Source: Plumapathes pennacea
Taxonomy: Eukaryota > Cnidaria > Anthozoa > Antipatharia > Myriopathidae
Assembly: GCA_964036295.1 (NCBI GenBank)
Contig: OZ038473.1
Coordinates: forward strand, 2,635,501 to 2,699,500
Length of the DNA stretch: 64,000 nt
Reading direction: 5' to 3'
Of the stretch, positions 12,957-56,414 are shown one piece after another. The translations under genes were made by a program, and so were the position numbers. Within the stretch, counting starts at the first letter, position 1. Every line of letters starts with the position of its first letter. The notes beneath the pieces are model-generated. The model was not told the origin of the DNA, did no database searches, and saw only the letters and a program-made list of their open reading frames with translations.

Positions 12957-13222
12957 TGATAAGTTTGCCGCTGGATCTCTAATGATCGCGGACGCACTGG
13001 CGACTGGGCAGAGTCTAACAACAAGCTGAGTTATCAAGATCAAAAAACCGTTAATAAATCTTTTAAAAGTTATCCTTAAAACCAACCTGTAACCACAATA
13101 AACTAATAAGCAGCATCAAAAAACACATTTTTCCGGCATAAATACGGTAACCAAGCAACTCTTCATTCTCCATTTTGTCTTTATTCATTTAGCAAGAAGA
13201 GATTCACGCATTTTTATCGGGG

Positions 13223-26135: not shown

Positions 26136-26873
26136 CTAATACCCGATATCACTTCGCATAGCAACACGATCGGCGGGAAAGCGAGGCAAGCCACTTCTGC
26201 TGTCGATTGGCGTCGGAGCGTGAATCACGGGACCGGAGTCCGGCATCAGTCCTCTGTGATGAACGAAGTGTCCGAGTTGAGTGAGATGGGATCTTGTCGG
26301 TATGTGCGTCGTATAAGCCATGGGGCCTGATGCGTAGGGAATTTCCCGCATGTACGACGAGCAAGGAGCCTTGAGCTCGGGCGGACTCTGCAGAACTTGA
26401 TAGTGAGGTTGGAAGTGATAAGGTGGAGGCGGTTCAGCTATGGAACAGTTTCCTGTACAGTTCGTGTAAAGTGATGGCGGAGGCAGAACGTGTCCCGGCA
26501 GTGGAGCGCACATTGAACTAGGCGGGGGGATCCCCAGCGTTAATTCAGGGTATCCGTAAGGACTCAAGCCGGGTGGTTTCAGCTTTGGACTTGCCTTGGG
26601 TTTCCTCTTCGGCTGATATTTATATTCTGGGTGATCCTTCTTATGTTGTTCCCGCAGCTTTTTCGCTTCCTCAACGTAAGGGTCCTTCTGATCCGGTGTG
26701 AGTGAATTCCACTCCATGCCCAGTCGTTTACTGATCTCCGAGTTGAGCATCCGCGGACATTCTTCTGCGATGCGCCGTCTTTCCTTCCTCGACCACACCA
26801 TATACGCGTTCATCGGTCGCTTTATGTGGTCTCCCGGTTTAGTCATAGTCTCACCGAGTAAATACTCCTTCAC
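26136..26873 (-). CDS. SoxB2-like: SoxB2-like (SOX14/21-like) HMG-box transcription factor, single exon
   Basis: 245 residues with one HMG box at about residues 15-93: [17 protein letters not shown], then [12 protein letters not shown] and [21 protein letters not shown](F/Y)MVWS is the Sox signature, and NSEISKRLG with an HMG box very close to the N terminus points to group B. From the inner Met at residue 10 (26846) the start [20 protein letters not shown] parallels SOX14/21, so that Met may be the true start. The box diverges at several places from typical SoxB (AEECPRML, the [13 protein letters not shown] stretch), and its end resembles SoxE/F, so subgroup assignment is tentative. The tail is rich in Pro, Tyr and His, as in activation or repression regions. 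It binds DNA in the minor groove in the nucleus; neural or ectodermal roles are known for relatives. Confidence 0.88.
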
Positions 26874-26946
26874 TATAACTCAATCGGATATGGCACTCGT
26901 TTTCGATGACTTGTGGTTTGTGGAGTGAGCGCCCAGATGTGGTAAA

Positions 26947-34631: not shown

Positions 34632-37600
34632 ATGCGAGTATTTGCTCTGTATTGCTTGCTGATCTGTTCCTGCGTTGTGAAGATTTTGGCGGTCTGTTCA
34701 AACCTTGATACTTCATTGCTCCCAGATACTGATCTCAAACAATGTAAAAAATTACCGTTCTTTGCCTCGAGCCCAGCACAACCATATTTTACTGTGATGG
34801 CTAACATCTCGTGGTTGGAGCGGCCGCCTCTTATGTACAACGACACATCACTTCTTGCAAACTCCTCAAGCAACGACTCGGCGAAGATAGGTATCTTCCC
34901 TGATGTCCTTGAACGTGCTTTCGAGATATGTTCCTATCGAATCAACCGAAAAACTAGACTTAATTACGGCCCCAAGGAGTACACGCTGAACGGTTTGCAC
35001 CAACAAATCCTGAACGGACCAGCGGACATAATCTTACCAGTACACAGCACAAAAGATTGGAGTTATGGAGGAATCGATCATTTAGAATTTGTAGAAGTCC
35101 TTAAATCACCAGGAGTTGTTGTTATAGTGGATAAAGACAGCCAAGGCCGGCAGGAAAGTGCGTTGGTGCTGCAAGTACTTAGCGGTATATGGCCCACTAT
35201 GCTACTTGCTGTAATTCTCTCTGCAATGTCAGGGATATTTCTCTGGATTCTGGTAAGACGTATATGGAAGTATATAGAATTGAAGGTAGTTACCTATAGA
35301 CGCTAAATAGTCAGTATTCATTCCTTTGTAGAACTCCTAAAAGATCTATAAAGACAACCTCACATTGCGCAGCAAATTCACATTTAATTTCTCAGCTCAT
35401 CTTACACGAACCTTTGTACGTTTTAGGGTACCGTCATCTTTATCCTTGTTCTTTAATTGTGAAAAAAAAAATCCAAAATCTATCAATATTTAGAATCTAG
35501 AAAATGAAAGAACTTAGCAATCCTTTCCATAACCGACTCAGTTGAGTACAAGATTTAGTTTGCTTATTTGGTGCTATTCGGTGCTACACACACTTATATT
35601 TCAGTTCAAGTTTTTAAACATTTCTAGACAATTTTAAATCGGCTGGGAAGGACGGGTATTGTCTTCATTAAGCTTAAACTTCTTTAACGGCGATCAGCTT
35701 TCCAACATCAACTTTTAGTTGATTTATCATTCGTTTTGTCTCCGCTGCCGACTAGTTCTCGCAAGTACTGGTATTCTGTTTTTAGTTACCTTTGTACGTG
35801 TGTACAAAGTACAGTTGAACCTCGCTATTTCAAACTCGGTTAATTCGAGTCCCCATTATTTCGAAGTCAAGCCGAATTCCCTTGGATATAATTTTTCAGT
35901 AATTTACTATCGGCTATTTCGAACCCCCGCTGTTTCGGACTTTTTTTCATGTCCCGTGCGACTTCGAAACAGCCGGGTTCGACTGCAGTAGCAACACATA
36001 TTATAAACTATTTGTTTTTTTTTTCCTTTCTTGAAGTTTTCACAATAACGTCACACTTTTCTTTTTTTTTTTTCGTTTTCTCGTGTTGTTTTTTCACCTG
36101 CACCCAATATGCATATAGATTGTTTGACGGGCAATAAAGGATAGATTGTATACCAATCAAGAATATGTATAACTTCCGAATAATCGTATTCAAAATGCAA
36201 GACAAATGAAAAGTGTATTTTGCCAGGTACAACAAGGTATATTCTGATAATAACGAGACTTAAGCGTGTTTTGTTCTCATAGGAAACAGCCAAAAATCCT
36301 GCAGATTTCCCACGCCTGCTTCATCAAGGAGCTTTCAATGGATTCTGGTGGGCATTCGTTACCATGTCAACGGTGGGGTAAGCCGGCCGACGACTAGAGT
36401 CAAGTATTTATAGTCAAAATCTGTTCTTCTCCTGTATGTAAACTCATTTGATTTATATGACTGCATCGTATGTTCACAGGTATGGAGACAAGGTCCCCAA
36501 GTCGATTCAAGGCCGCATTTTTGCTGTAATCTGGATAATGATCGGGATGATAATTTGCTCAACTTTGACCGCGACTTTAACTTCAACGTTTGACAAAGTC
36601 AATAAGGCAAATAAAGAATTTGAGCTGACGGGAAAACAGGTAAACTAAGCTTCAAGATATAGCATTGCTTTCTAATGAAAAAATTGGTATTCCTTAGTAT
36701 AACTGCTATTCCTTTTTGTGTCTCCTCTGTTTTTCTAAAAAACTATTTATCTATCTCTATATAGTTTAATTTACTGGTCCTAAAAAATCTTGCATCTTTT
36801 TCCCGCTTATATTTAGTTAGTTTTCTAAGTTGCTTCAGTGCCCTCTTCTTTCCTCCGGGAATTGAGTGGATTATCATGTAATCAACCGTCTAATCCTACA
36901 GACTGGCGCTATTGAAGACACACAAGCGTACTACGAGGCCATCAAACGGGGAACTATTGTGACAGGTAGTCATCCAAACCATACTTGAAGTTTATCAATA
37001 CGAATCGCAAACGGAGAAGTTTAACTATAAGACAACTCACAGCCACAAAGGGGATCAGCAATTGGATTCTAAGCCATGACGTACAATACCCTCATAACAA
37101 TATGGGAGCATTTTGACAAGTGTGAGTTCAATTTATACCCATCACATAATGCAAGAATTGCATAGGTTTTATGAAGTACATCTACAACCAGAACGAATCG
37201 GATCTGCACTTAACATAATCCAATTCCTACAGTATCACATGAATCCTAAAGGTATCACTCTATAAGTTCGCGATCTGAATATCACACTAACACTAGGTGT
37301 AGCAGCTACAGGAAATCCGAGATTTTTTCCCCTTAATTTGGAAAGTAGCATGCGTAAAACTAATAAACGCATTCTCCGTTCTATTCTCTCCAAGCTTTTA
37401 ACGACTTTGAAGAGATGCAGCATGCACTCCTTGTAACAAAAAAGATCGAAGCCATTCTGGAGGAAATTCATCCAGCGACCTACAGCTTACAAAAATTTAA
37501 CGATCCCAGGCTCACCATCGTAAAATACTTGGAAAGTGAGCGTCGCTACGGCTTTGCTATCAACAGTAAAAGACATCCGGACTTACCTGGATGTGTACGC

Positions 37601-38188
37601 TCCCTTATCGTGGACAGACAGAAGGACATCTTTATGCTGACTAGTAGACACCTAACCAAGGCTGAGGTGGGTGACAGACCAAAGTAATCCACTACTACGG
37701 TTAGCAAGAATAAGATAAACAAATTTGAAATTAGTTTGTGGCTTATGTGAAATTTTTAAAAAACGTGTTGCGTATTACATCGAGCATGGGGCCGGAGGAC
37801 GGTTCTGGTTTTATATAGTTGGGAGGTGTCGCTAGTTTTTCGATCAACGCTGCCATCATATATCGATAGTGTTCTCTGACCATGGTCGACCATGGTCAGA
37901 GTTGTTTCATGACCACGGTCAAATATTTGTGGCCACACATCAAAAATATCCACAAGTCCAACAGATTTCGACAAAATCACATGAATGAAAATAAGGAAAT
38001 ATATATTTTTTCGTTTCTTATTCTGAACAAAGGATATCACCAAGAAGATTGAAAAAGGCAGACTGGAGGAATTGTTTGACAAGCACAAGATAACAGCTAT
38101 TGGTGGAATTTGCTTCGTCTCCATCATAGTATGTGCAGTGCTTATACAGCAGACCTATTCCTTGTGGAAACGGATGAGAGCGCGATGA
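34632..38188 (+). CDS. Glutamate-receptor-like channel with K+ selectivity filter, copy 1
   Basis: Exons 34632-35252, 36283-36377, 36480-36639, 36902-36965, 37395-37666, 38033-38188 give 455 residues in one frame. Order: signal peptide (1-21); S1 lobe (about 58-185, with ISWLERPP, GIFPDVLERAFEIC, NGLHQQILNGPADIILPV); M1 (188-207); re-entrant pore GFWWAFVTMSTVGYGD (filter 237-242); M2 (about 250-272, ending CSTLTATLTS, in the place of the SYTANLAAF motif of animal receptors); S2 lobe (293-423); C-terminal TM (about 425-447). This is the GluR0 plan with an added last TM. TVGYGD predicts K+ selectivity. The expected ligand arginine after the PVHST stretch is not seen, so the ligand is unknown. 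The tail ends early (RMRAR) because an 11-base unit is triplicated at 38173-38205. First of four tandem copies. Confidence 0.85.
35810..35990. mobile_element. pogo/Tigger-like MITE in intron 1, copy 1
   Basis: Starts CAGTTGAACCTCGCTATTTC and ends with the complement (GAAACAGCCGGGTTCGACTG), next to TA. The interior repeats TATTTCGAA motifs. The same element is at the same place in all four copies. Confidence 0.65.
37874..37901. repeat. Perfect 28-bp palindrome in intron 5, copy 1
   Basis: CTCTGACCATGGTC followed by its exact complement. Present also at 45696-45723 and 50891-50918, decayed in copy 4. Confidence 0.8.
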
Positions 38189-38876
38189 GAGCGCGATGAG
38201 AGCGCAAAAGCACCAAAGGGGAGCAAGCAATTGCGACCAGGCAGCGAATCCAGACGCTTATGTATAGATTAAAAACCAGAGCAGGTTAATCCTTTCACAT
38301 TCAAAAATGTTCAACTTCAATATTCTCCTTCAGTTTCTTACCAGGAATATGTCTATAGTATGGAGAACTTGGCTTTTGAGAGCTATCTTAAATAAAAGCT
38401 GATTAAACCATCAATTCTCACTACAACACTCATACATTTTATTATTAAAAGGTTGGGAGAATCTGCATTTTAAACTTGGGAGTGAAAGGGTTAACTGTCT
38501 GAGTATATGTTATGTAAATATCCAAACTTTGCAGCAAAATAGAGAGAAATTTCGTACTATGAAAGCCATAGAATTCTGACCCCTTTCTTTCAATTTATTG
38601 GCCAACAAACTGTGTGGTTTTGATGAAAGACAAAGATAAACTTAAACTAAACCTAAAATCAAAATTATGTAATGAATACCGTATTAAGAATACATTGCTG
38701 TGATAAGATATCAGAGTCAGTAAATTTCTGTTACTATGGTAACCAACGGTCATTAGCAGAGATGTACATTACTCAATATATCTTAAGCATCAGAAGCGAA
38801 GTTCGTGTGGCTTTGACAAAAAACAAATCCTCGTTTCCATAAATCGAGGTCAAATTTCTGACCTACTTGTAATAAA

Positions 38877-39084
38877 TTATGCTCTGTTCAAAACTGTAGC
38901 AGAAACCAATTCGACTAATCTTAGAGGCTCATCCACCAATATATATTTGCCACGCCCAAACACAGAATTTATGAAAAAAAGCTTTAGTTGCAATGGGGCC
39001 ACAACGTGGAACAAGCTTCCTATTGATTTACACAAGGCCATATCAGCAGAATCATTTAAAAGCAAACTTAAGGCCATCAACCTC
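38877..39084 (+). pseudogene. C-terminal remnant of a LINE reverse transcriptase ORF
   Basis: The frame reads LRGSSTNIYLPRPNTEFMKK followed by SFSCNGATTWNKLPIDLHKA and ESFKSKLKA. The NGA..WN.LP.(D/E)L pattern followed by a short SFK..LK is the usual C-terminal end of L2/CR1-type non-LTR retrotransposon proteins. There is a stop just upstream, and no reverse transcriptase core. A second copy is at 58126-58335. Confidence 0.65.
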
Positions 39085-39100
39085 TTATTCATCATTATTA

Positions 39101-39262
39101 CACAGTGGAATCTCAATTTTTCGAACCCTCGATTTTTGAACATCCCGATTATTCGAACCAAAAATCGCTTCCCTTGGACCTCTTAACACCGTGTGGTAAA
39201 TTTTACCCCCGATTTTTCGAACTGCGATAAGTCAAACCAATTTTCGTTTTCGGATTTCACTG
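39101..39262. mobile_element. pogo/Tigger-like MITE
   Basis: Ends CACAGTGGAATCTCAATTTT and complement of GTTTTCGGATTTCACTGTA, with TA on both sides. The interior is full of TTTTTCGAAC motifs in both orientations. It lies just after the LINE remnant. Confidence 0.6.
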
Positions 39263-40134
39263 TATTATCTCGTGTCTATCCTCTGTTTCATCTTTTGATG
39301 ATATACTAGGTCGTAGAGCCGTGCTGATACGGGTGGAAGAGAATTCTATACACTAAACGGCATAATAAACACCCAACAGGTCTATGGTGGCGCTTCTTTA
39401 GATTTTTTTCTTGTTAATTTACTAACTGCTTTTCCCACGGGTTACATGAACATCCTTGTGAACGGGAGTGAGAATTTATGGAGTTACAATAAAATTTGAG
39501 AAATAGCGGTCAGGTGGTTTAAACAGGCTTGTGCATATAAAACTAGTTGTAGCTTTCGCTAAGTGCCAACGAGAGAAAAAGAACTCGATGACAGATGCTA
39601 GTGAGTGCATGTGTTAACCTCGTGCAAAATGCTCCCTCCTGATTGGCTAAGAAACGATAAATCAACATCTCTTTTCATTGGCTCTGTTGGCTCTAATATT
39701 TCCGGCAACAAAGTCTCCAGGGAATCTACACCTTACATTACACTTTTAACAGCTCGATCGAGAATTTTTCTGCCTGCTGCAATACTTTGCGTGGCATTAT
39801 GCTGGCCGCCTCACAAGCCGACCGTCTTCGCTCGGCTTGCTCGTTGGCAACTAGTAGTTTCCATTTTTTTTTGCGCGCAAATGTTTCTGAGATGAAGTCT
39901 TGGTGAGAATGTGATAGAATAAATATTCTTCGTGTATCGTTCAAAATATATGAGGAACTGCGACAGACAACCCGCCTTCAACCCTATAAGGAACGGGATC
40001 TTTCTCGCGTGATGCTGTATGACCGCGAAGTTTTTTGTCTCGTCAGAGTATTTAAGTTACAGTCTAAATGGTTGAATCGAAAAATAAAAAAAAAAAGTAT
40101 TTTCATAACAATTATTATTTGCGAAGTGCAAAAT

Positions 40135-40748
40135 TTAAGAAATATATAACGCGTCACCGTGTAATATAGCCTCATCTAAACACGCGGGAAGTTGGGAGAA
40201 CACGAGAGTTAGCGTAAGGAAACCACGAGGCCGCCGAGTGGTTTCCGGCGCTACTCGAGTGTTCTCCCAACTTCCCAAGTGTTTAGATGAGGCTATATTA
40301 CACGGGAACACGTTATATATTTCTTTTATAAAATAATTAGTCAAGTAAAAAACATCGTGTATCGCGTCAGCGTGTAATATACTCTCTTATTATATAGACA
40401 CGAGTGTTTTACTGGAAAATATGCCGTGCGTAAAATCCATACGAAACTACATCCGGGACCCGAGTGGCGTATTTTCCACATCCTCACTAGTGAGGGTATC
40501 GTTGGCATCATTTCTCGCTTTTGCACGGTTGTTTGCGCAATTTCTCGTAAAACACTCGTGTCTAATATAATAAAAAGAAAATTACACGGCGGCTTGAAGA
40601 TATGGATTTTATTTTCTCGCGGTAAAAACAATATTTTACCACTCGAAAATAAAATTCATATCTTCGCGCCGCCGTGTAATATCCTCTATATCTAACACGG
40701 TTATTTAGCCAATCAGGGCGCGCGTAGTATCATAGTTATTTTATAAAA
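40135..40748. mobile_element. Palindrome-rich composite element (about 610 bp)
   Basis: Three large hairpins follow one another: GCCTCATCTAAACAC arms (about 40165-40300), ACACGAGTGTTTTAC arms (about 40396-40562), and GCGGCTTGAAGATATG arms (about 40590-40680). Compared with the paralogous spacer near 33585 (GTGCAAAATAATACAATCGA), the whole block is an insertion. The same block in reverse orientation is at 56665-57682. No coding capacity; family not identified. Confidence 0.7.
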
Positions 40749-41806
40749 TACAATCGAGAAATTTTAATGTAACTAAAACTTGACAGGCCAGAGACCAGAG
40801 GTATAACTCCCACGTTCTAAAGAGTATCCTATTCTAAGCGCAAATGAATATACTACCAACAAGCGACTGGTACGGAAGCTTGATAAGGATCCAATGAGTA
40901 TCAGACATTTCTATAATATAGTCAAAGAAAAGGACTGACGCTGTGCTTTTGAATTATACACACACGCCAGACGGCTTGACTGTTTTTAGATCAGTTTTTC
41001 CTCTTGACTAGTATACTATATTAAATTTCTGTTCAGTCGACGCAGATAAACAGCACTTCTTTCAGAGAGTAAATAACGGTCAAACTGAACAAATACACTT
41101 ATTGGTGCAGCAAATAAACGATTGCTTAGAGAAACAGAATACAGTAAAAGATAATCTAAGCAATAAATTAGTACGCGCCGGTCCCGCCATCTTAAAAGCT
41201 GCTCGTATGTCAATTAATTTTACAATTCGTTCCTCACGTCTTCAACCTTCAAGCGAAATGGAGCATTGAATCCGTGGTAATCCACCTTATTTAAAATTGC
41301 AAAGTTTTAAAATGGATATTATCCCAACCTATTTACAAAAAAATACACGAGTAATGTAATGAGAATAGCTTAGTCAGCTTTAACATGAGCAAGGTATCAA
41401 AAGCCAAGTTCTCCTTACTGTATGATCAATTTATAGAGAAAATGAAAGAGAAAATTGAAGTTGATCTAGGTAAACTGGGAAAAGACTTCTTAATTTAGAT
41501 GCTACGTGGGAAGCAAGTCCACAGATAATTTTTAAAGTGCATGTCACTAAAAAAAAAATACAACTATCATACTGACCTAACATACATTAAGTTGCTTTAG
41601 CATATTCAGACATTAAATATTTATTTCAAACGATTTTCCTTGTAAAGATGTTGACACCTGTTTTTGTTAATATATTTACATCAATATTAGTTTTCGCTTG
41701 GTAAAGAACATTCCTCGCCCAAGGACGTTCCTGTTTGTTAGGACAGGAGAAAACCACACGGAGGAGAGTAACCAGAAAACTCGACAGCGAGCGCACTGAA
41801 TCTAAG

Positions 41807-44800
41807 ATGCGAGTCTTTGCTCTGTATTGTTTGCTGATCTGTTCCTGCGTTATGAAGATTTCGGCTGTCTGTTCAAACCTCGACAGTGCTTCTTCATTGC
41901 TACGAGACACTGATCTCAAATCTTGTAATGATCGTAAAAAAACATCGTTCGAGGTAACGCCCAACCGGAGTGAAGTACTTCCTGTAAACTCTTCAAACAA
42001 TGACTCAAAGAGCATATTTTTAGAACCACCACCACCACCTTACTGTGCTGCGACGGCTAGAATTTCGTGGTTGGAGCGGCCACCTATGGTGTACAACGAC
42101 ACATCACTTCATGCAAACTCCTCAAAACACGACTGGGCGACGAAAGGTATCTTCCCTGATGTCCTTGAACGTGCTTTTGAGATATGTTGCTATCGCTTCT
42201 ACCAAAACACAACTACAATGAATTACGGCCCCAAGGAGTACACGCTGAACGGTTTGCACCAACAACTCCTGAACGGATCAGCCGACATAATCTTACCAGT
42301 ACACAGCACAAAAGATTGGAGTTATGGAGGAATCTATCATTTAGAATTTGTAGAAGTCCTTAAATCACCAGGAGTTGTTGTTATAGTGGATAAAGACAGC
42401 CAAGGCCTGCGGGAAAGTGCGTTGGTGCTGCATGTACTTAGCGGTATATGGCCCACTGTGCTACTTGCTGTAATTCTCTCTGCAATATCAGGGATATTTC
42501 TCTGGATTCTGGTAAGACCGTAGAATTGAAGGTAGTTAACTATAAACGCTAAATAGTCAGTATTCATTCCTTTGTAGAACTTCTAAAAGATCTATAAAGA
42601 CAAAGTCACATTGCGCAGCAAACTTACATTTAGGTTCTCAATTCATCTTACACGAACCTTTGTACGTTTTAGGGTACCGTCATCTTTATCACTGTTCTTT
42701 GTGAAACAAAAATCCAAAATCCATCAATATTTAGAATCTAGAAAATGAAAGAACTTAGCAATCCTTCCATAACTAAAAATGAGTATTTTTGAGTACAAGA
42801 TTTCACTTATATTTCAGTATATTTCTTCATGTTGAGAGCCTCAGTTCAAGTTTTTAAACATTTCTAGACAATTTTGAATTGGCTGGGAAGGCCGGGTATT
42901 GTCTTTATTAAGCTTAAACTTCTTTAACGGCGATCAGCTTTCCAACATCAACTTTTGGTTGATTTATCATTCGTTTTGTCTTCGCTGCCGACTAGTTCTC
43001 GCAAGTACTGGTATTCTGTTGCTTTTTTAGTTACCTTTGTACGTGTGTACAAAATACAGTTGAACATCGCTATTTCGAACTCGGTTAATTCGAGTCCCCA
43101 TTATTTCGAAGTCAAGCCGAATCCCCTTGGATATAGTTTTTCAGTCATTTACTATCGGCTATTTCGAAACCCCACTGTTTCGAACTTTTTTTCGTGTCCC
43201 GTGCGACTTCGAAATAGCGGGGTTCGACTGCAGTAGCAACACATATTATAAACTATTTGTTTTTTTCTTGTCTTCCTTGACGTGTCCACAATAACGCCAC
43301 ACTTTTTCTTTTCATTTTTTCGTTTTTGTTTTTTCACCTGCACCCAATCTGCATATAGATTGTTTGACGAGCAGTAAAGGGTAGATTGTATACCTCTAAA
43401 TCAAGGATGTCCTTGGGGGCTAAACTTCCGAATAATCGCATTCAAAACGCAAGACAAGTGGGTGCTATTTCGGTCATTACCTTTAACAACCGGTAAAGTT
43501 AACATCTGATTCAATCAGCTTGAAGGACAGCATTCATGAAAAACTGTATAGATCTCAGATTAAATATTTTCACCGAACAATTGAGTAGGGCTACACTCGG
43601 ACATATGCCATACAATGACTTCCTTTCGACCTTCTAAAAAAAGAAATTAAAATAAAAAAAAAAAAGGAAAAACAAAATGGGAATTTTCCTAAAAATATAG
43701 CCTATTAAACTACAGGTTGAGAGAATCCTAATTTTGTGTCTTGAATCAGGGCTCAAAGAATGAGCCCGAAAAGTGCTTTTTTCCAGGTACAACAAGGTAT
43801 ATTCTGATAATAACGAAACTAAAGCGTATTTTTTCCTCACAGGAAACAGCCAAAAATCCTGCAGATTTCCCGCGCCCGCTTCATCGAGCTTTCAATGGAT
43901 TCTGGTGGGCATTCGTTACCATGTCAACGGTGGGGTAAGCCGGCCGACGACTAGAGTCAAGTATTTATAATCAAAATCTGTTCTTCTCCTGTATGTAAAC
44001 TCATTTGATTTATATGACTGCATCGTATGTTCACAGGTATGGAGACAAGGTCCCCAAGTCGATTCTAGGCCGCATTTTTGCTGTAATCTGGATAATGATC
44101 GGGATGATAATTTGCTCAACTTTGACCGCGACTTTAACTTCAACGTTCGACAAAGTCAATAAGGCAAATAAAGAATTTGAGCTGACGGGAAAACAGGTAA
44201 ACTAAGCTTGAAGATGTAGAATGATTGCTTTCTAATAAAAACATTGGTATTCCCTAGTATAATGGCTATTCCTTTTTGTGTCTACTCTGTTTTTCTAAAA
44301 AGCTATTTATCCATCTCTATATAGTTTACTGGTCTTAACAAATCTTGCACCCTTTTCCCGCTTATATGTAGTTAGTTTTCTAAGTTGCTTAAGTGCCATC
44401 TTCTTTCCTCCGGGATTTGAGTGGACTATCATGCAATCAACCGTCTAATCCTACAGATTGGCGCTATTGAAGACACACAAGCGTACTACGAGGCCATTAA
44501 ACGGGGAACAAATGTGACGGGTAATCACCTAAACCATACTTTGATTAATGGTAAAGTTTATCAATACGGATCGCAAACAAAGAATGTTAATTATGAGACA
44601 ACTCACAGCCACAAAGGCGATCAGCAGCTGGATTCTAATCCATGACGTACGATATTCTTATAACACTATGGGAGCACTATGTCAAGTGTGAGTTCAATCA
44701 CAGGGCGCAGAGGAGTTCGCTTACTTTCCATTATGTAAAGCCCTATATATTGACTTACATGAAGGATACCGCAGGACAATTAAATTACGGGCGCACTGCG

Positions 44801-46078
44801 CGTCATGTCTGTATTATGCCTTCGCGCGCCCGCGATGAAATCGTCTTGCGGTATCATTCATGTGGGCCAATATAGAAGGGTTTTACATAATGGTAAGCAA
44901 GCGAAATCTTCTGCGCCCTGTGGTTCAGTTCATACCCATCACATGATGCAAGAATTGCATAGGTCTTATGAAGTACATCCACAACCAGAACGAATCCGAT
45001 CTGTACTTAGTAAAATCCATTTCCTAAAGCATCACATGAATCTTAAAGGTATCACTCTAAGTTCGCGATCAGAATATCAGACTAACATCAGGTTAATTTC
45101 TGTATAGCAGCTCTAGGGAATTCGATATTTCCCCTCTTACTTTGGAGAGTAGCATGACCAGATAATCGTAAAACTAATAAACGCATTCTCCGTTCTACTC
45201 TCTCCCAGCTTTTAACGACTTTGAAGAGATGCAGCATGCACTTCTTGTAACAAAAAAGATCGAAGCCATTCTGGAGGAAATTCATCCTGCGAGCTACAGC
45301 TTACAAAAATTTAACGATCCCAGGCTCACCATCGTGAAATACTTGGAAAGTGAGCGTCGCTACGGCTTTGTTATCCACAATAAAGGACATCCAGCCTTAC
45401 CTGGATGTGTACGCTCCCTTATCGTGGACAGACAGAAGGACATCTTTATGCTGACTAGTAGACACCTAACCAAGGCTGAGGTGGGTGACAGACCAAAGTA
45501 ATCCACTACTACAACTGGCAAGAACAAGATAGAAAAATTTGAAATTAGTTTGTGGCTTATGGAAAATTTTAAAAAAATGTGTTGCGTATTACATCGATAC
45601 ATCGAGCATGGGGCCGAAGGACGGTTCTGGTTTTATATAGTTGGGAGGTGTCGCTAGTTTTTCGATCAACGTTGCCATCATATATCGATAGTGTTCTCTG
45701 ACCATGGTCGACCATGGTCAGAGTTGTTTCATGACCACGGTCAAATATTTGTAGCTGTACATCAAAAATGTCCACAAGTCCAAAAGATTTCGACAGAATC
45801 ACATGAATGAAAATAAAGAAATATATATATTTTTTCGTTTCTTATTCTGAACAAAGGATATCACCAAGAAGATTGAAAAAGGCAGACTGGAGGAATTGTT
45901 TGACAAGCACAAGATAACAGCTATTGGTGGAATTTGCTTCGTCTCCATCATAGTATGTGCAGTGCTTATACAGCAGACCTATTCTTTGTGGAAACGGATG
46001 AGAGCGCGAAAGCACCAAAGAAGGGGGGCCAAGAAAACGCGACCAAGCAGCGAATGCAGGCCCTCATGTATAATTTAA
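41807..46078 (+). CDS. Glutamate-receptor-like channel with K+ selectivity filter, copy 2
   Basis: Exons 41807-42511, 43843-43934, 44037-44196, 44457-44520, 45209-45480, 45857-46078; 504 residues, frame intact. Same plan as copy 1, with TVGYGD split by the intron between exons 2 and 3. The segment between the signal peptide and ISWLERPP is about 28 residues longer than in copy 1 and includes an EPPPPPY stretch. Exon 2 lacks one codon (LHRAF where copies 3 and 4 have LHRGAF). In S1 the pocket-side segment is DWSYGGIYHLEF (Tyr where copy 1 has Asp). The tail is full length, with a basic RKHQRRGAKK and final SCII. A reading from an earlier ATG at 41735 is possible but would bury the signal peptide, so 41807 is chosen. 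Confidence 0.85.
43055..43235. mobile_element. pogo/Tigger-like MITE in intron 1, copy 2
   Basis: Orthologous insertion to that at 35810-35990: CAGTTGAACATCGCTATTTC to GCGGGGTTCGACTG, TA-flanked. Confidence 0.65.
44699..44922. mobile_element. MITE in intron 4, copy 2
   Basis: CACAGGGCGCAGAGGAGTTC at the left and complement of AAATCTTCTGCGCCCTGTG at the right, 224 bp. The flanks GTTCAAT and GTTCAGTT look like a target duplication of about 8 bases, hAT style. Copy 1 lacks it (GAGTTCAATTTATACCC at about 37120). Confidence 0.65.
45696..45723. repeat. Perfect 28-bp palindrome in intron 5, copy 2
   Basis: Same palindrome as at 37874-37901, unchanged. Confidence 0.8.
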
Positions 46079-47317
46079 AAACCAAGGCAGGTTAATTCTT
46101 TCACTCTCAAGAGTGTTCAACTTCAATTTTCTCCTTCAGTTTCTCACCAGAAATATATCATAGAGTAAGGAGAACTTGGTTTTTGATACCTCGCTCAGAT
46201 GATAGCTGATTAAACCATCAATTCTCACTACAACACTCATACATTTTATTCTTAAAAGGTTGGGAGAATCTGCATTTTAAACTTGGGAGCGAAAGGGTTA
46301 ACTGTCTGAGTATATGTTATGTTTTCGTACTATGAAAGCCATAGAATCCTAACCCCTTTCTTTCAATTTATTTAAATTATGTAATAAATACCGTATTTTA
46401 AAGAACACATTGCTGTGATGAGGTATCAGAGCCAGTAAATTTCCGTTACTATGGTAACCAACGGTCATTAGCAGAAATGTACATTACTAATATATCTTAT
46501 ATATCTTGAGCATCAGAAGCAAAGTTTGTGTGGCTTTGACAAAAAACAAATCCTCGTTTCCATAAATCGAGGTCAAATTTCTGACCTACTTGCAATAAAT
46601 TCTGCTCTGTCCATATTTAGAACAGACTGTTAAAGAAGTTGTTTAAACGCTCATAACTAAGAAAGTGTGATTAACCTCCCAACAGATGAACTAAATTCAC
46701 CGGCAGCTCATAAGGCAGGGTTGTGCCCAAGTTCCTGAATCTTAGTTCAGTCAGCTATCATCTGAGCAAGATAAAAAAAAAAAGTTCTCCTTACTGTATA
46801 ATCAATTTGTAGAGAGAAAATGAAAGAGAATGTTGAAGTTAATCTATAGGTAAACTGGGAAAAGACTTCTTAATTTAGATGCTACGTGAAAGTGAGTCAG
46901 AATTATTTGCTCCCATTTTTCTACCGCACGCCAATTACGGTTAGTTTTACACGGTTATCTGAGAAACGAAACCTCTGTGACCATATTATCCTTGGAAGCG
47001 AGACAATAGCATAAAAGCTTTTAGACAATTTAAGACCACAGATAATTTTTATAGTGCATGTCATTAAAAAAATAAAATTATCATGTTAACCTAACATACA
47101 TTAAGTTGCTTTAGCATATTCAGACATTAAATATTTATTTCAAACGGCTTCCCTTATAAAAGATGTTGACACCTGCTTTTGTTATATATACCAATATTAG
47201 TTTTTGCTTAGTAAAGAGCATTCCTCGCCCAAGGACGTTCCTGTTTGCTAGGACAGGAGAAAACTACACGGAGGAGACTAATCAGAAAACTCGACAGCGA
47301 GCGACACTGAATCTAAG
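46079..47317. other. Spacer between channel copies 2 and 3
   Basis: Similar to 38189-38900 and to 51274-52533. Contains the decayed pre-LINE segment GGTAACCAACGGTCATTAGC (about 46453) and the promoter-proximal block from 47091. No gene seen. Confidence 0.6.
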
Positions 47318-50300
47318 ATGCGAGTCTTTGCTCTGTATTGTTTGCTGGCCTGTTCCTGCGTTATGAAGATTTCGGCGGTCTGTTCAAACCTTGATACTTC
47401 ATTGCTCCCAGATACTGATCTCAAACAATGTAAAGAATTACCGATCTTTGGCTCGAGCCATGATGTGATGGCTAACATCTCGTGGTTGGAGCGGCCACCT
47501 ATGGTGTACAACGACACATCACTTCTTGCGAGTTCCTCAAGCAACGACTCGGCGAAGATAGGTATCTTCCCCGATGTCCTTAAGCGTGCTTTCGAGATAT
47601 GCTCCTATCGCTTCTACCAAAAAACTAGACTTAACTACGGCCCCAAGGAGTACACGCTGAACGGTTTGCACCAACAAATCCTGAACGGACCAGCGGACAT
47701 AATTTTACCAGTACACAGCACAAAAGATTGGAGTTATGGAGGCATCGATCATTTAGAATTTGTAGAAGTCCTTAAATCACCAGGAGTTGTTGTTATAGTG
47801 GATAAAGACAGCCAAGGCCGGCAGGAAAGTGCGTTGGTGCTGCAAGTACTTAGCGGTATATGGCCCACTGTGCTACTTGCTGTAATTCTCTCTGCAATAT
47901 CAGGGATATTTCTATGGATTCTGGTAAGACCGTAGAATTGAAGGTAGTTAACTATAAACGCTAAAAAGTCAGTATTCATTCCTTTGTAGAACTGCTAAAA
48001 GATCTATAAAGACCTCGCATTGCGCAGCAAATATACATTAAGGTTTTCAACTCATCTCACATGAACCTTTATACATTTAGGTTCTCAACTCATCTCACAC
48101 GAACCTTTGTACGTTTTAGGGTACCGTCATCTGTATCACCGTTCTTTGTGAAAAAAAAAATCCAAAATCCATCAATATTTAGAATCTAGAAAATGAAAAA
48201 TCTTTTCCTTCCCAATCCTTTCCATATCCGACTAATTTGAGTACAAGATTTAGTTTGCTTATTTGGTGATATTCGGTGCTACACACACTTATATTTCAGT
48301 ATGATATTTCTTCATGTTGTGAGCCTTAGTTCAAGTTTTTAAACATTTCTAGACAATTTTAAATTGGCTGGGAAGGCCGGGTATTGTCTTCATTAAGCTT
48401 AAACTTCTTCAACGGCGTTTAGCTATCCAACATCAACTTTTAGTTGATTCATCATTCGTTTTGTCTCCGCTGCCGACTAGTTCTCGCAAGTACTGGTATT
48501 CTGATTTTAGTTACCTTTGTACGTGTGTACAAAGAACAGTTGAACCTCGCTATTTCGAACTCAGTTAACTCGAGTCCCTATTATTTCGAAGTCAAGCCGA
48601 ATCCCCTTGGATATAATTTTTCAGACATTTATTATCGGCTATTTCGAAACCCGCTGTTTCGAACTTGTTTTCATGTTCCGTGCGACTTCGAAATAGCGGG
48701 GTTCGACTACAGTAGCAACACATATTGTAAACTTTTTTTTTTTCCTCTTCCTTGACGTTTTCACAATAACGCCACACTTTTCTTTTCTTTTTTTTTTTTT
48801 TTCGTTTTCTCGTGTTGTTTTTTCACCTGCACCCAATATGCATATAGATTGTTTGACGGGCAATAAAGGATAGATTGTATACCAATCAATAATATCTATT
48901 AGGGTAAACTTCCGAATGATCGCATTCAAAATGCAAGACAAATGAAAAGTGTATTTTGTCAGGTACAACGAGGTATATTCTGATAATAACAAAACTAAAG
49001 CGTATTTTCTCCTCACAGGAAACAGCCAAAAATCCTGCAGATTTCCCGCGCCCGCTTCATCGAGGAGCTTTCAATGGATTCTGGTGGGCATTCGTTACCA
49101 TGTCAACGGTGGGGTAAGCCGGCCGACGACCAGAGTCAAGTATTTATAGTCAAAATCTGTTCTTCTCCTGTATGTAAACTCATTTGATTTATATGACTGC
49201 ATCGTATGTTCACAGGTATGGAGACAAGGTCCCCAAGTCGATTCAAGGCCGCATTTTTGCTGTAATCTGGATAATGTTCGGGATGATAATTTGCTCAACT
49301 TTGACCGCGACTTTAACTTCAACGTTCGACAAAGTCAATAAGGCAAATAAAGAATTTGAGCTGACGGGAAAACAGGTAAACTAACCTTGAAGATATAGCA
49401 TTGCTTTCTGATGAAAAAATTGCTATTCCTTAGTATAATGGCTATTCCTTTTTGTGTCTCCTCTGTTTTTCTAAAAAGCTATTTATCCATCTCTATATAG
49501 TTTACTGGTCCTAACAAATCTTGCACCCTTTTCCCGCTTATATGTAGTTAGTTTTCTAAGTTGCTTCAGTGCTATCTTCTTTCCTCCGGGATTTGAGTGG
49601 ACTGTCATGTAATCAACCACCTAATCCTACAGACTGGCGCTATTGAAGACACACAAGCGTACTACGAGGCCATCAAACGGGGAACAAATGTGACGGGTAA
49701 TCACCTAAACCATACTTTGATTAATGGCAAAGTTTATTAATACGAATCGCAAACAAAGAATGTTAATTATGAGACAACTCACAGCCACAAAGGGGATCAG
49801 CAGCTGGATTCTAATCCATGACGTACGATATTCTTATAACACTATGGGAGCACTATGTCAAGTGTGAGTTCAATCACAGGGCGCAGAGGAGTTCGCTTAC
49901 TTTCCATTATGTAAAACCCTATATATTGACTTACATGAAGGATACCGCAGGACGATTAAATTACGGGCGCACTGCGCGTCATGTCTGTATTATGCCTTCG
50001 CGCGCCCGCGATGAAATCGTCTTGCGGTATCATTCATGTGGGCCAATATAGAAGGGTTTTACATAATGGTAAGCAAGCGAAATCTTCTGCGCCCTGTGGT
50101 TCAGTTCATACCCATCACATGATGCAAGAATTGCATAGGTTTTATGAAGTACATCAACACCCAGAACGAATCCGATCTGTACTTAGTAAAATCCATTTCC
50201 TAAAGCATCACATGAATCTTAAAGGTATCACTCTAAGTTCGCGATCAGAATATCAGACTAACATCAGGTTAATTTCTGTATAGCAGCTCCAGGGAATTCG

Positions 50301-51273
50301 ATATTTTTCCCCCTTACTTTGTGGAAAGTAGCATGACAAGATAATCGTAAAACTAATAAACGCATTCTCCGTTCTATTCTCTCCAAGCTTTTAACGACTT
50401 TGAAGAGATGCAGCATGCCCTTCTTGTAACAAAAAAGATCGAAGCCATTCTGGAGGAAATTCATCCTGCGACCTACAGCTTACGAAAATCCAACAATCCC
50501 AGGTTCACCATCGCGAAATACTTGGAAAGTGAGCGTCGCTACGGCTTTGTTATCCACAATAAAGGACATCCAGACTTACCTGGATGTGTACGCTCCCTTA
50601 TCGTGGACAGACAGAAGGACATCTTTATGCTGACTAGTAGACACCTAACCAAGGCTGAGGTGGGTGACAGACCAAAGTAATCCACTACTAAAACTGGCAA
50701 GAACATGATAAACAAATTTGAAATTAGTTTGTGGCTTATGTGAAATTTTTAAAAAAACGTGTTGCGTATTACATCGAGCATGGGGACGAAGAACGGTTCT
50801 GGTTTTATATAGTTGGGAGGTGTCGCTAGTTTTTCGATCAACGCTGCCATCATATATCGACAACATGGTTGACCATGGTCAGATAGTGTTCTCTGACCAT
50901 GGTCGACCATGGTCAGAGTTGTTTCATGACCACGGTCAAATGTTTGTAGCTGTACATCAAAAATGTCTACAAGTCCAAAAGATTTCAACAAAATCACATG
51001 AATAAAAATAAGGAAATATATATATTTTTTCGTTTCTTATTCTGAACAAAGGATATCACCAAGATCATTGAAAAAGGCAGACTGGAGGAATTGTTTGACA
51101 AGCACAAGATAACAGCTATTGGTGGAATTTGCTTCGTCTCCATCATAGTATGTGCAGTGCTTATACAGCAGACCTATTCCTTGTGGAAACGGATGAGAGC
51201 GCGAAAGCACCAAAGAAGGGGGGCCAAGAAAACGCGACCAAGCAGCGAATGCAGGCCCTCATGTATAGATTAA
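47318..51273 (+). CDS. Glutamate-receptor-like channel with K+ selectivity filter, copy 3
   Basis: Exons 47318-47923, 49019-49113, 49216-49375, 49633-49696, 50388-50659, 51052-51273; 472 residues, frame intact. It has the shortest linker after the signal peptide (KELPIFGSSHDVMANISW). M2 begins RIFAVIWIMFGMIICST, with Phe where copies 1 and 2 have Ile. The exon 5 segment SLRKSNNPRFTIAKYLESER differs from the other copies (SLxKFNDPRLTIVKYLESER), as does DITKIIEKG at the start of exon 6. Full-length basic tail ending SCID. Plan, pore and membrane segments as in copy 1. Confidence 0.85.
48535..48714. mobile_element. pogo/Tigger-like MITE in intron 1, copy 3
   Basis: Orthologous to 35810-35990; ends CAGTTGAACCTCGCTATTTC and GCGGGGTTCGACTA. 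Confidence 0.65.
49875..50098. mobile_element. MITE in intron 4, copy 3
   Basis: Orthologous to 44699-44922, same length (224 bp) and same flanks. Confidence 0.65.
50891..50918. repeat. Perfect 28-bp palindrome in intron 5, copy 3, with partial extra copy
   Basis: Same palindrome as in copies 1 and 2. A partial extra unit, ACATGGTTGACCATGGTCAG, precedes it at 50863-50882. Confidence 0.8.
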
Positions 51274-52533
51274 AAACCAGAGCAGGTTAATCCTTTCGCT
51301 CCCAAGAGTGTCCAACTTCAATTTTCTTCTTCAGTTTCTTACGAGAGATATATCATATAGAAAGGAAAACTTGGCCTTTGATACCTTGCTCAGATGAAAG
51401 CTGATTAAACCATCAATTCTCACTACAACACTCATACATTTTATTCTTAAAAGGTTAGGAGAATCTGCATTTTAAACTTGGGAGCAAAAGGGTTAACTGT
51501 CTGAGTATATGTTATGTAAATATCCAAACTTTGCAGCAAAATAGAGGGAAATTTCGTACTATGAAAGCCATAGAATCCTAACCCCTTTCTTTCAATTTAT
51601 TTAAATTATGTAATAAATACCGTATTTTAAAGAACACATTGCTGTGATGAGGTTTCAGAGCCAGTAAATTTCCGTTACTATGGTAACCAACGGTCATTAG
51701 CAGAAATGTACATTACTTATTATATCTTAAGCATCAGAAGCAAAGTTTGTGTGGCTTTGACAAAAAACAAATCCTCGTTTCCATAAATCGAGGTCAAATT
51801 TCTGACCTACTTGCAATAAATTCTGCCCTGTCCATATTTAGAACAGACTGTTAAAGAAGTTGTTTAATCGCTCATAACTAAGAAAGTGTGATTAACCTCC
51901 CAACAGATGAACTAAATTCACCGGCAGCTCATAAGGCAGGGTTGTTGAATCCAAGTTCCTGAATCTTAGTTCAGTCAGCTATCATCTGAGCAAGGTATAA
52001 AAACTCAAGTTCTCCTTACTATATGATAAATTTCAGGAGAGAAAATGAAAGAGAAAATTGAAGTTGATCTATAGGTAAACTGGGAAAAGACTTCTTAATT
52101 TAGATGCTACGTGAAAGTGAGTCAGAATTATTTGCTCCCATTTTTCTTCCGCACGCCAATTACGGGTAGTTTTACACGGTTTTCTGAGAAACGAAACCTC
52201 TGGGACCATATTATCCTTGGAAGGGAGACAATAGCATTAAAGCTTTTAGACAATTTTAGACCACAGATAAATTTTATAGTGCATGTCATTAAAAAAAATT
52301 AAATGTCATGTTGACCTAACATACATTAAGTTGCTTTAGCATATTCAGACATTAAATATTTATTTCAAACGGCTTCCCTTATAAAAGATGTTGACACCTG
52401 CTTTTGTTATATATACCAATATTAGTTTTCGCTTGGTAAAGAGCATTCCTCGCCCAAGGACGTTCCTGTTTGTTAGCACAGGAGAAAACCACACGGAGGA
52501 AAGTAATCAGAAAACTCGACAGCGAGCGACACT
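51274..52533. other. Spacer between channel copies 3 and 4
   Basis: Closely matches the copy 2-3 spacer. At about 51519 it has GTTATGTAAATATCCAAACT, the empty site for the element inserted at 56665-57682. No gene seen. Confidence 0.6.
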
Positions 52534-55500
52534 ATGCGAGTCTTTGCTCTGTATTGTTTGCTGGCCTGTTCCTGCGTTGTGAAGATTTCGGCGGTCTGTT
52601 CAAACCTTGATACTTCATTGCTCACAGACATTGATCTCAAACAATGTAAAAAATTACCGATCTTAAAATTGAGACCAGCAAAACCATATTTTACTGCGAT
52701 GGCTAACATCTCGTGGTTGGAGCGGCCGCCTCTTATGTACAACGACACATCACTTCTTGCAAACTCCTCAAGCAACGACTCGGCGAAGATAGGTATCTTC
52801 CCCGATGTCCTTAAGCGTGCTTTCGAGATATGTTCCCATCGAATCAACCGAAAAACTAGATTTTATTACGGCCCCAAGGAGTACACGCTGAACGGTTTGC
52901 ACCAACAAATCCTGAACGGACCAGCGGACATAATCTTACCAGTACACAGCACAAAAGATTTGAAATATGGAGGCATCAAACATTTGGAATTTGTAGAAGT
53001 CCTTAAATCACCAGGAGTTGTTGTTATAATGGATAAAGACAGCCAAGGCCTGCAGCAAAGTGCGTTGGTGCTGCAAGTACTAAGCGGTATATGGCCCACT
53101 GTGCTACTTGCTGTAATTCTCTCTGCAATATCAGGGATATTTCTCTGGATTCTGGTAAGACCGTATATGGAAGTATATAGAATTGAAGGTAGTTACCTAT
53201 AGACGCTAAATAGTCAGTATTCATTCCTTTGTAGAACTAAAAGATCTATAAAGACAACCTCACATTGCGCAGCAAATTTACATTTAGTTTCTCAACTCAT
53301 CTTACACGAACCTTTGTACGTTTTAGGGTACCGTCATCTTTATCATTGTTCCTTAATTGTGAAAAAAAAAAATCCAAAATCCATCAATATTTAGAATCTA
53401 GAAAATGAAAGAACTTAGCAATCCTTTCCATAACCGACTCATTTGAGTACAAGATTTAGTTTGCTTATTTGGTGCTATTCGGTGCTACACACACTTATAT
53501 TTCAGTATGATATTTCTTCATGTTGTGAGCCTTAGTTCAAGTTTTTAAACATTTCTAGACAATTTTAAATTGGCTGAGAAGGCCGGGTATTGTCTTCATT
53601 AAGCTTAAACTTCTTCAACGGCGTTTAGCTATCCAACATCAACTTTTAGTTGATTCATCATTCGTTTTGCCTTCGCTGCCGACTAGTTCTCGCAAGTACT
53701 GGTATTCTGTTTTTAGTTACTTTTATGCGTGTGTACAAAATACAGTTGAACCTCGCTATTTAGAACTCGGTTAATTCGAGTCCCCATTATTTTGAAGTCA
53801 AGCCGAATCCCCTTGGATATAATTTTTTCAGTCATTTATTATCGGCTATTTCGAAACCCCGCTGTTTCGAACTTTTTTTCGTGTCCCGTGCGACTTCGAA
53901 ATAGCGGGGTTCGACTGCAGTAGCAACACATATTATAAACTTTTTTGTTTTTTTTTTTTTCCTTTCTTGACGTTTTCACAATAATGCCACACTTTTCTTT
54001 TTTTTTTTTTCGTTTTCTCGTGTTGTTTTTTCACCTGCACCCAATATGCATATAGATTGTTTGACGGGCAATAAAGGATAGATTGTATAACAATCAAGAA
54101 TATCTATTGGGGTAAACTTCCGAATAATCGCATTCAAAATGCAAGACAAATGAAAAGTGTATTTTGCCACGTACAACAAGGTATATTCTGATAATAACGA
54201 AACTAAAGCGTATTTTCTCCTCACAGGAAACAGCCAAAAATCCTGCAGATTTCCCGCGCCCGCTTCATCGAGGAGCTTTCAATGGATTCTGGTGGGCATT
54301 CGTTACCATGTCAACGGTGGGGTAAGCCGGCCGACGACCAGAGTCAAGTATTTATAGTCAAAATCTGTACTTCTCCTGTATGTAAACTCATTTGATTTAT
54401 ATCACTGCATCGTATGCTCACAGGTATGGAGACAAGGTCCCCAAGTCGATTCAAGGCCGCATTTTTGCTGTAATCTGGATAATGTTCGGGATGATAATTT
54501 GCTCAACTTTGACCGCGACTTTAACTTCAACGCTCGACAAAGTCAATAAGGCAAATAAAGAATTTGAGCTGACGGGAAAACAGGTAAACTAAGCTTCAAG
54601 ATATAGCATTGCTTTCTAATGAAAAAATTGGTATTCCCTAGTATAATGGCTATTCCTTTTTGTGTCTACTCTGTTTTTCTAAAAAGCTATTTATCCATCT
54701 CTATATAGTTTACTGGTCCTAACAAATCTTGCACCCTTTTCCCGCTTATATGTAGTTAGTTTTCTAAGTTGCTTCAATGCTATCTTCTTTCCTCCGGGAT
54801 TTGAGTGGACTATCATGTAATCAACCACCTAATCCTACAGACTGGCGCTATTGAAGACACACAAGCGTACTACGAGGCCATCAAACGGGGAACAAATGTG
54901 ACGGGTAATCACCTAAACCATACTTTGATTAATGGCAAAGTTTATCAATACGAATCGCAAACAAAGAATGTTAATTATGAGACAACTCACAGCCACAAAG
55001 GCGATCAGAACTGGATTCTAATCCATGATGTACGATATTCTTATAACACTATGGGAGCACTATGTCAATCACAGGGCGCAGAGGAGTTCGCTTACTTTCC
55101 CTTATGTAAAACCCTATATATTGACTTACATGAAGGATACCGCAGGACGATTAAATTGCGGGCGCACTACGCGTCATGTCAGTATTGTCTTCGCGCGCCC
55201 GCGATGAAATCGTCTTGCGGTATCATTCATGTACATAATGGTAAGCAAGCGAAATCCTCTGCGCCCTGTGGTTCAGTTCGTACCCATCACATGATGCAAG
55301 AATTGCATCTTAGGTCTTATGAAGTACATCAACACCCAGAACGAATCCGATCTGTACTTAGTAAAATCTATTTCCTAAAGCATCACATGAATCCTAAAGG
55401 TATCACTAGATATAAGTTCGCGATCACAATATCAGACTAACATCAGGTTAATTTCTGTATAGCAGCTCTAGGGAATTCGATATTTCCCCTCTTACTTTGG

Positions 55501-56414
55501 AGAGTAGCATGACAAGATAATCGTAAAACTAATAAACGCATTCTCCGTTCTATTCTCTCCAAGCTTTTAACGACTTTGAAGAGATGCAGCATGCACTTCT
55601 TGTAACAAAAAAGATCGAAGCCATTCTGGAGGAAATTCATCCTGCGACCTACAGCTTACGAAAATTTAACGATCCCAGGCTAACCATCGTGAAATACTTG
55701 GAAAGTGAGCGTCGCTACGGCTTTGTTATCAACAGTAAAAGACATCCAGACTTACCTGGATGTGTACGCTCCCTTATCATGGACAGACAGAAGGACATCT
55801 TTATGCTGACTAGTAGACACCTAACCAAGGCTGAGGTGGGTGACAGACCAAAGTAATCCACTACTACAACTGGCAAGAACAAGATAAAAAAAAATCCAAT
55901 TAATTAGTTTGTGGCTTATGGGAGATTTTTCAAAATGTGTTGCGTATTACATCGAGCATGAATGCCGAAGGACGGTTCTGGTTTTATATAGTTGGGAGGT
56001 GTCGCTAGTTTTTCGATCAACGCTGCCATCATATATCCGGCGACAACATGGTTGATTATAGTCAGATAATGTTTCATGACCACGGTCAAATATTTGTCGC
56101 CGCACATCAAAAATATCCACAAATCCAACAGATTTCGACAAAATCACATGAATGAAAATAAGGAAATATATCTTTTCCGTTTTTTATTCTGAACAAAGGA
56201 TATCACCAAGATCATTGAAAAAGGCAGACTGGAGGAATTGTTTGACAAGCACAAGATAACAGCTATTGGTGGAATTTGCTTCGTCTCCATCATAGTATGT
56301 GCAGTGCTTATACAGCAGACCTATTCCTTGTGGAAACGGATGAGAGCACGAAAGCACCAAAGAAGGGGGTCAAGAAAGTGGGACCAGGCAGCGAATGCAG
56401 GCGCTCAAGTATAA
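52534..56414 (+). CDS. Glutamate-receptor-like channel with K+ selectivity filter, copy 4
   Basis: Exons 52534-53154, 54227-54321, 54424-54583, 54841-54904, 55564-55835, 56199-56414; 475 residues, frame intact. Same plan and TVGYGD filter. The S1 segment is DLKYGGIKHLEF where copies 1 and 3 have DWSYGGIDHLEF, a charge change in the lobe. VVIMDKDSQGLQQ also differs. A small deletion near the end shifts the tail frame, giving RRGSRKWDQAANAGAQV in place of the basic-plus-cysteine tail of copies 2 and 3. Intron 4 happens to be open in the exon-4 frame (a 211-residue run at 54805-55440), but the part after 54904 is intron and MITE sequence in the paralogues. Confidence 0.85.
53741..53922. mobile_element. 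pogo/Tigger-like MITE in intron 1, copy 4
   Basis: Orthologous to 35810-35990; ends CAGTTGAACCTCGCTATTTA and GCGGGGTTCGACTG. Confidence 0.65.
55070..55270. mobile_element. MITE in intron 4, copy 4
   Basis: Orthologous to 44699-44922 with small internal deletions (201 bp). Confidence 0.65.

Follow-up and report, generated by a model that had tools for sequence, protein, structure and literature searches.

Can an animal glutamate receptor carry the selectivity filter of a potassium channel, and is such a combination peculiar to a single locus? The question arises from a stretch of 64,000 nucleotides of the antipatharian Plumapathes pennacea, hereafter the window (contig C12, positions 2635501-2699500, in a host assembly of 290 Mb and 24 contigs), in which an initial annotation had recognised a tandem array of four intact, spliced genes for glutamate-receptor-like proteins of 455-504 amino acids (aa). 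Judging from sequence relationships, the array is one cluster of a large cnidarian family of channels built like ionotropic glutamate receptors (iGluRs) and bearing a K+ filter, a family present in several cnidarian classes. Our preferred reading, to which we give a probability of roughly 0.7, is that the four genes are recent paralogues of this kind, coding for channels that would be ligand-gated and hyperpolarising.

The array had been placed at 34632..56414 of the window; these coordinates coincide with the start codon of gene A and the stop codon of gene D, and the four genes lie head to tail, all on the plus strand:

Gene A, 34632-38188, plus strand: six exons, 455 aa
Gene A exon 1, 34632..35252, plus: signal peptide (by eye), S1 lobe, M1
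Gene A exon 2, 36283..36377, plus: pore helix, first filter half (ends STVG-)
Gene A exon 3, 36480..36639, plus: second filter half (-YGD), M2; PF07885 match
Gene A exon 4, 36902..36965, plus: start of S2
Gene A exon 5, 37395..37666, plus: remainder of S2
Gene A exon 6, 38033..38188, plus: last transmembrane (TM) segment, C-terminus, stop
Gene B, 41807-46078, plus strand: six exons, 504 aa
Gene B exon 1, 41807..42511, plus
Gene B exon 2, 43843..43934, plus
Gene B exon 3, 44037..44196, plus
Gene B exon 4, 44457..44520, plus
Gene B exon 5, 45209..45480, plus
Gene B exon 6, 45857..46078, plus: with stop
Gene C, 47318-51273, plus strand: six exons, 472 aa
Gene C exon 1, 47318..47923, plus
Gene C exon 2, 49019..49113, plus
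Gene C exon 3, 49216..49375, plus
Gene C exon 4, 49633..49696, plus
Gene C exon 5, 50388..50659, plus
Gene C exon 6, 51052..51273, plus: with stop
Gene D, 52534-56414, plus strand: six exons, 475 aa
Gene D exon 1, 52534..53154, plus
Gene D exon 2, 54227..54321, plus
Gene D exon 3, 54424..54583, plus
Gene D exon 4, 54841..54904, plus
Gene D exon 5, 55564..55835, plus
Gene D exon 6, 56199..56414, plus: with stop

The six exons were recovered in each copy by exon repeats, all 20 introns are GT-AG, and the intron phases (0, 2, 0, 1, 0) are identical across the four copies. Splicing gives every protein the order first described, namely S1, M1, P loop with STVGYGD, M2, S2 and last TM: exon 1 codes for the signal peptide, S1 lobe and M1, exon 2 for the pore helix and the filter as far as STVG, exon 3 for the filter remainder YGD and M2, exons 4 and 5 for the S2 lobe, and exon 6 for the last TM. 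The signal peptide ascribed to each gene was judged by eye; the last hydrophobic segment is found in 4/4 window proteins (best 19-residue hydropathy 2.76). The products, whose lengths match the range given earlier, are 85-93% identical in pairwise comparison, with ratios of nonsynonymous to synonymous divergence (dN/dS) of 0.42-0.80. Chance open reading frames or pseudogenes are ruled out by four intact frames with matching splice sites, and by their identity and dN/dS genes A-D are recent, intact copies.

The filter motif is missing from the raw DNA because intron 2, in phase 2, splits the codon of the first filter Gly, between TVG and YGD. With up to two mismatches allowed, STVGYGD gave one unrelated match only in the unspliced window DNA (1.24 expected by chance), and TVGYG was not found in the six-frame translation of the window. 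A pattern script found the same intron in 27 of 30 other family loci of the host genome. An intron site common with K2P channels was rejected: seven host loci taken for K2P (L041-L047) were fetched, the first-pore exon was readable in six, and in these 6/7 the acceptor corresponds to phase 1 in the codon of the filter Gly, a single base away from the phase 2 of the array family, the donor side not having been read. The array family and the loci taken for K2P, two K+ channel families, have adjacent, non-identical intron sites in this codon.

Among the matches listed in protein searches, named relatives come from hexacorals, octocorals, a scyphozoan, hydrozoans and an annelid, and are full-length or nearly so. 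They include Oculina, Porites, Montipora, Acropora, Pocillopora, Stylophora and Desmophyllum; Exaiptasia, Actinia, Actinostola, Nematostella, Xenia, Dendronephthya and Paramuricea; Rhopilema, Hydra and Hydractinia; and the annelid Dimorphilus gyrociliatus, with two. The best named relatives in the first search were from Oculina (34% identity) and Porites (39%). Two follow-up searches covered the best 120 of 329 and the best 120 of 181 matches, and the second yielded at least 10 Nematostella-named matches, among which isoforms are possible. Matches of about 300 aa were left uncounted, being taken, from four examined (P0100, P0110, P0134, P0150), as first exons read into the intron. Most of the listed matches bear source names of the "uncharacterized", "potassium channel domain-containing" or Kv-like sort, and one is called "Cubilin". 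Additional ectodomains occur in some relatives, namely CUB and Ig in P0248, FN3 in P0281 and EGF repeats in P0265. Next after the animal family came prokaryote-type channels with SBP_bac_3 and Ion_trans_2.

A FastTree phylogeny of 199 rows (two of 201 removed as shorter than 300 aa), with the outgroup formed by the prokaryote-type channels and P0005 only, recovered an animal clade without any prokaryote-type channel (support 0.82). The window genes fall inside a hexacoral clade of 13 members (support 0.992), where their pairing with P0001 is weak (0.41). P0005 (473 aa) lies immediately outside the clade of cnidarian and annelid proteins (support 0.80) and may derive from another eukaryote; P0015 (287 aa), too short for the tree, was seen as a search match only.

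The array is not unique in its own genome either. An Ion_trans_2 profile search of the host scored 150 of 237 candidates; 34 matches, four of them in the window, start at profile position 41, as would be expected if the exon opens at -YGD. By tblastn, each of the 30 loci outside the window matches the family, and for 27 the fetched stretch includes at least a partial S1 segment; the genome holds at least 30 family loci beyond the array. On the same contig, a second tandem cluster of at least four members (L009-L012, C12:10054000-10098500) shows identities to the window genes of 42-50% in S1, 50-63% in exon 2, 65-68% in exon 3 and 63-68% in exon 5. Further clusters lie on contig C4 at about 5.98-6.28 Mb and 8.46-8.57 Mb (L013-L016, L029-L032, L035-L040), and the best match of several of these loci is a relative with CUB/Ig or FN3 domains.

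What the proteins are made of was approached through domains. The domain check proposed at the outset came out in part: the gene A and gene C proteins match Ion_trans_2 (57 bits), Ion_trans (41-42) and Lig_chan (39-44) in Pfam, all over cut-off, and neither matches SBP_bac_3 or Lig_chan-Glu_bd. No ligand-domain Pfam family was recognised in 11 family members, which gave single weak unrelated matches (best E 0.015), and NCBIfam gave two proteins K+ channel matches below cut-off only. Against solved structures, the gene C protein matches best with 4h33, a bacterial channel of Kv type (E 2.3e-11), and GluN1 and Kv chains come next; its residues 98-269, from late S1 to M2, match GluN1 (5un1, E 3.5e-9). 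The window ligand domain, searched as a single sequence against solved structures, had no match up to E 10. The profile needed in its place gave 39 sequence matches with GluR0 on top, and eukaryotic glutamate receptors, AvGluR1 included, are absent among the 39. Pfam does not recognise the S1/S2 lobes; support for them comes from the GluN1 match of gene C and from the fold of two relatives.

The models of these relatives, P0001 and P0205, have a two-lobe ligand domain, split by the pore into S1 and S2, that is nearest to GluR0 and to bacterial glutamine-binding proteins. The absence of such a fold, which had been named as what would overturn the annotation, was not seen in either model (the window proteins themselves were not folded). 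Both models have a single membrane span ahead of the P loop and lack voltage-sensor segments, so that the S1-S4 sensor of Kv channels is not found; nor are the two pore domains per chain of K2P channels, each window protein having one P loop. The full-length matches reproduce the animal iGluR arrangement of ligand-binding and transmembrane domains with three membrane spans, at low query-normalised Foldseek TM-scores of 0.26-0.38 (P0001) and 0.33-0.45 (P0205) and root-mean-square deviations of 9-16.5 A over the best 50 matches per model. The AvGluR1 ligand-domain structure is among the P0205 fold matches, with GluR0 about 3 Z units above it (21.5) in the same table, and is not among the best 50 of P0001.

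Residues were compared in 118 of the 131 listed cnidarian-type proteins, those with G[YFLI]G[DN], after dropping P0291 (no filter motif) and 12 proteins shorter than 440 aa, and in 77 prokaryote-type channels; many of both sets are without a named source. All 118 relatives have TVG[Y/F]GD, with Y in 117. By hydropathy, a hydrophobic segment follows S2 in 115/118 relatives as against 0/77 prokaryote-type channels. The S2 acid that binds the ligand amine in iGluRs is D or E in 117/118 relatives and E in the four window genes. In contrast, the S1 column of the carboxylate-binding Arg has R in 10/118 relatives versus 76/77 prokaryote-type channels, in a gapped loop of uncertain alignment; the window S1 loop (LPVHSTKD..HLEF) has no Arg anywhere and does have Lys. 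This loss is suggestive, and the name "glutamate" receptor is doubtful because the canonical Arg is not evident. Two adjacent cysteines in S1 and one in S2 are each kept in 108-111/118 relatives, a possible family disulphide; in the window genes the S2 cysteine and the first of the S1 pair are present, the second S1 cysteine in gene B alone. The M2 end resembles SYTANLAAF (S in 102, T in 106, A in 91, then T in 70 of 118), a motif of iGluRs (PMC6307864).

Receptors of this kind are already known: bacteria have GluR0 and a rotifer has AvGluR1. GluR0 itself (Synechocystis, Nostoc) and other channels with SBP_bac_3 and Ion_trans_2 share the S1-M1-P-M2-S2 order and the K+ filter, and GluR0 is the top match of the family both in fold (two relatives) and in ligand-domain sequence. 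The sampled channels of this type differ in keeping the Arg column (76/77) and in having no span after S2 (0/77), where the window proteins have their last TM. AvGluR1, of the bdelloid rotifer Adineta vaga, is the closest animal counterpart so far described and is said to have been studied by Janovjak in 2011 and Lomash in 2013. Like the array family, it is an animal receptor whose bilobed ligand domain is extracellular and which has a P loop besides three membrane spans, with a TXVGYG-type filter; the window proteins have both such a P loop (STVGYGD, 4/4) and an AvGluR1-like third span after S2 (4/4). Four papers describe AvGluR1 as K+-selective, with a four-segment layout and a TXVGYG signature (PMC12226733, PMC12332018, PMC11479355, PMC3483616). 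The earlier view that no described animal family fits must therefore be given up: the union of K+ filter, GluR0-like lobes and last TM in one spliced gene stands, its want of an animal precedent does not. The array family departs from AvGluR1 in its highly diverged ligand domain, mostly lost Arg column, gene expansion and, in some relatives, CUB/Ig, EGF or FN3 ectodomains.

Animal iGluRs (AMPA, kainate, NMDA, Epsilon, Lambda) share with the array family the three membrane spans, the domain arrangement and the S2 acid, to which the GluN1 match of gene C and the partial SYTANLAA-like motif may be added. In the array genes the K+ filter replaces the Q/R/N site, there is, by length, no amino-terminal domain, and the ligand domain is unrecognised by Lig_chan-Glu_bd. 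The ionotropic receptors (IRs) of insects and other protostomes are likewise expanded, chemosensory iGluR relatives, often without ligand-binding residues, and they are not known to have a K+ filter. Eleven Nematostella iGluRs have been placed in NMDA or AMPA/kainate clades (PMC1876816). In the literature searched, largely without subscription papers, we found no description of a cnidarian K+-filter iGluR family, and this family, with its expansion, Arg loss, ectodomains and split filter, is apparently undescribed.

How might such a channel work? Following what is established for GluR0, AvGluR1 and iGluRs, four subunits would surround one central pore, and the bilobed extracellular S1+S2 domain, of the GluR0/periplasmic-binding-protein fold, would shut around a small ligand outside the cell. 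Lobe closure would tug M2 and open a K+-selective gate, and the cell would be hyperpolarised or shunted; the last TM may pack on the pore like M4 of iGluRs. Glutamate bound in the canonical manner is probably not the ligand, since the carboxylate-anchoring Arg is generally not found and the amine-anchoring S2 acid is kept. The extent of the tandem expansion suggests that the channels sense molecules from the environment or from symbionts, and chemoreception is the role we prefer.

Several points weigh against this reading. The Arg loss depends on the uncertain, gapped S1 loop, where the window genes themselves are gapped; the neighbouring column has K in 35/118 relatives, the window loops have Lys (TKD in 4/4, LKY in D), and Lys could replace Arg in the pocket. 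The pocket is so diverged that the lobes might serve a structural purpose alone. The fold is known from two relatives, about one third identical or less to the window proteins. Within the array, mean dN is 0.251 in the N-terminus, 0.075 in S1, 0.017 in the pore, 0.030 in S2 and 0.000 in the last TM, and mean dS drops in parallel (0.388, 0.111, 0.026, 0.065 and 0.043), leaving dN/dS alike at about 0.65 in N-terminus, S1 and pore. Gene conversion in the pore could explain the regional contrast in dN as well as selection does; being matched by dS, it is no evidence of faster selection on the outer domain, and none for chemoreception.

The alternative that survives best, which we nonetheless consider unlikely, is a ligand-independent K+ channel, leak or voltage-insensitive background, whose lobes are a structural or protein-interaction module. 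The mostly lost Arg column, the ligand domain unrecognised by Pfam in 11/11 members and the fusion of some relatives to CUB/Ig, EGF or FN3 ectodomains would suit such a channel, whereas the two-lobe domain of both models, with its strong match to amino-acid-binding proteins, and the S2 acid kept in the pocket argue against it. A direct orthologue of AvGluR1, an amino-acid-gated K+ channel of ordinary pharmacology, is somewhat less probable still: GluR0 exceeds AvGluR1 in the fold table, no eukaryotic glutamate receptor (0/39) appears in the ligand-domain profile matches, and the Arg column is mostly not kept. Kv or K2P fragments mis-joined to unrelated exons by the splice model, as a source label like "potassium voltage-gated channel subfamily B member 1-like" and the 4h33 match of gene C might hint, are very improbable and such an identity is ruled out by the identical arrangement of six exons in all four copies, the occurrence in many species of full-length proteins without interruption, several of them (P0093, P0198, P0211, P0213) on apparently transcript-like contigs no longer than 1.8-3.5 kb, the iGluR-like M2 end, and the single hydrophobic span before the P loop without voltage-sensor segments in the models.

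Around the array, the window contains a tandem repeat downstream (60740-61281, seven overlapping copies at 57-base spacing) and, upstream, an HMG-box frame that is Sox-like by eye (26136-26879, minus strand) and an alpha/beta hydrolase frame (13193-14236, plus strand); both upstream frames are consistent with animal nuclear DNA.

The proposal that the union of a K+ channel with a bacterial binding protein gave rise to glutamate receptors has so far rested on GluR0 and one rotifer receptor. Beyond the preferred reading of the array as ligand-gated K+ channels, we propose tentatively, and with more doubt than confidence, that the family forms a large, previously unrecognised class of cnidarian inhibitory chemoreceptors with a K+-filter iGluR fold, which would preserve a pre-iGluR K+-channel stage with the last TM and answer to ligands other than glutamate. 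If true, cnidarians would possess fast ligand-gated K+ inhibition and a candidate set of chemoreceptors. A family found in hexacorals, octocorals, a scyphozoan, hydrozoans and an annelid, with the tractable Nematostella and Hydra among its bearers, would open the intermediate stage of iGluR evolution to direct testing.

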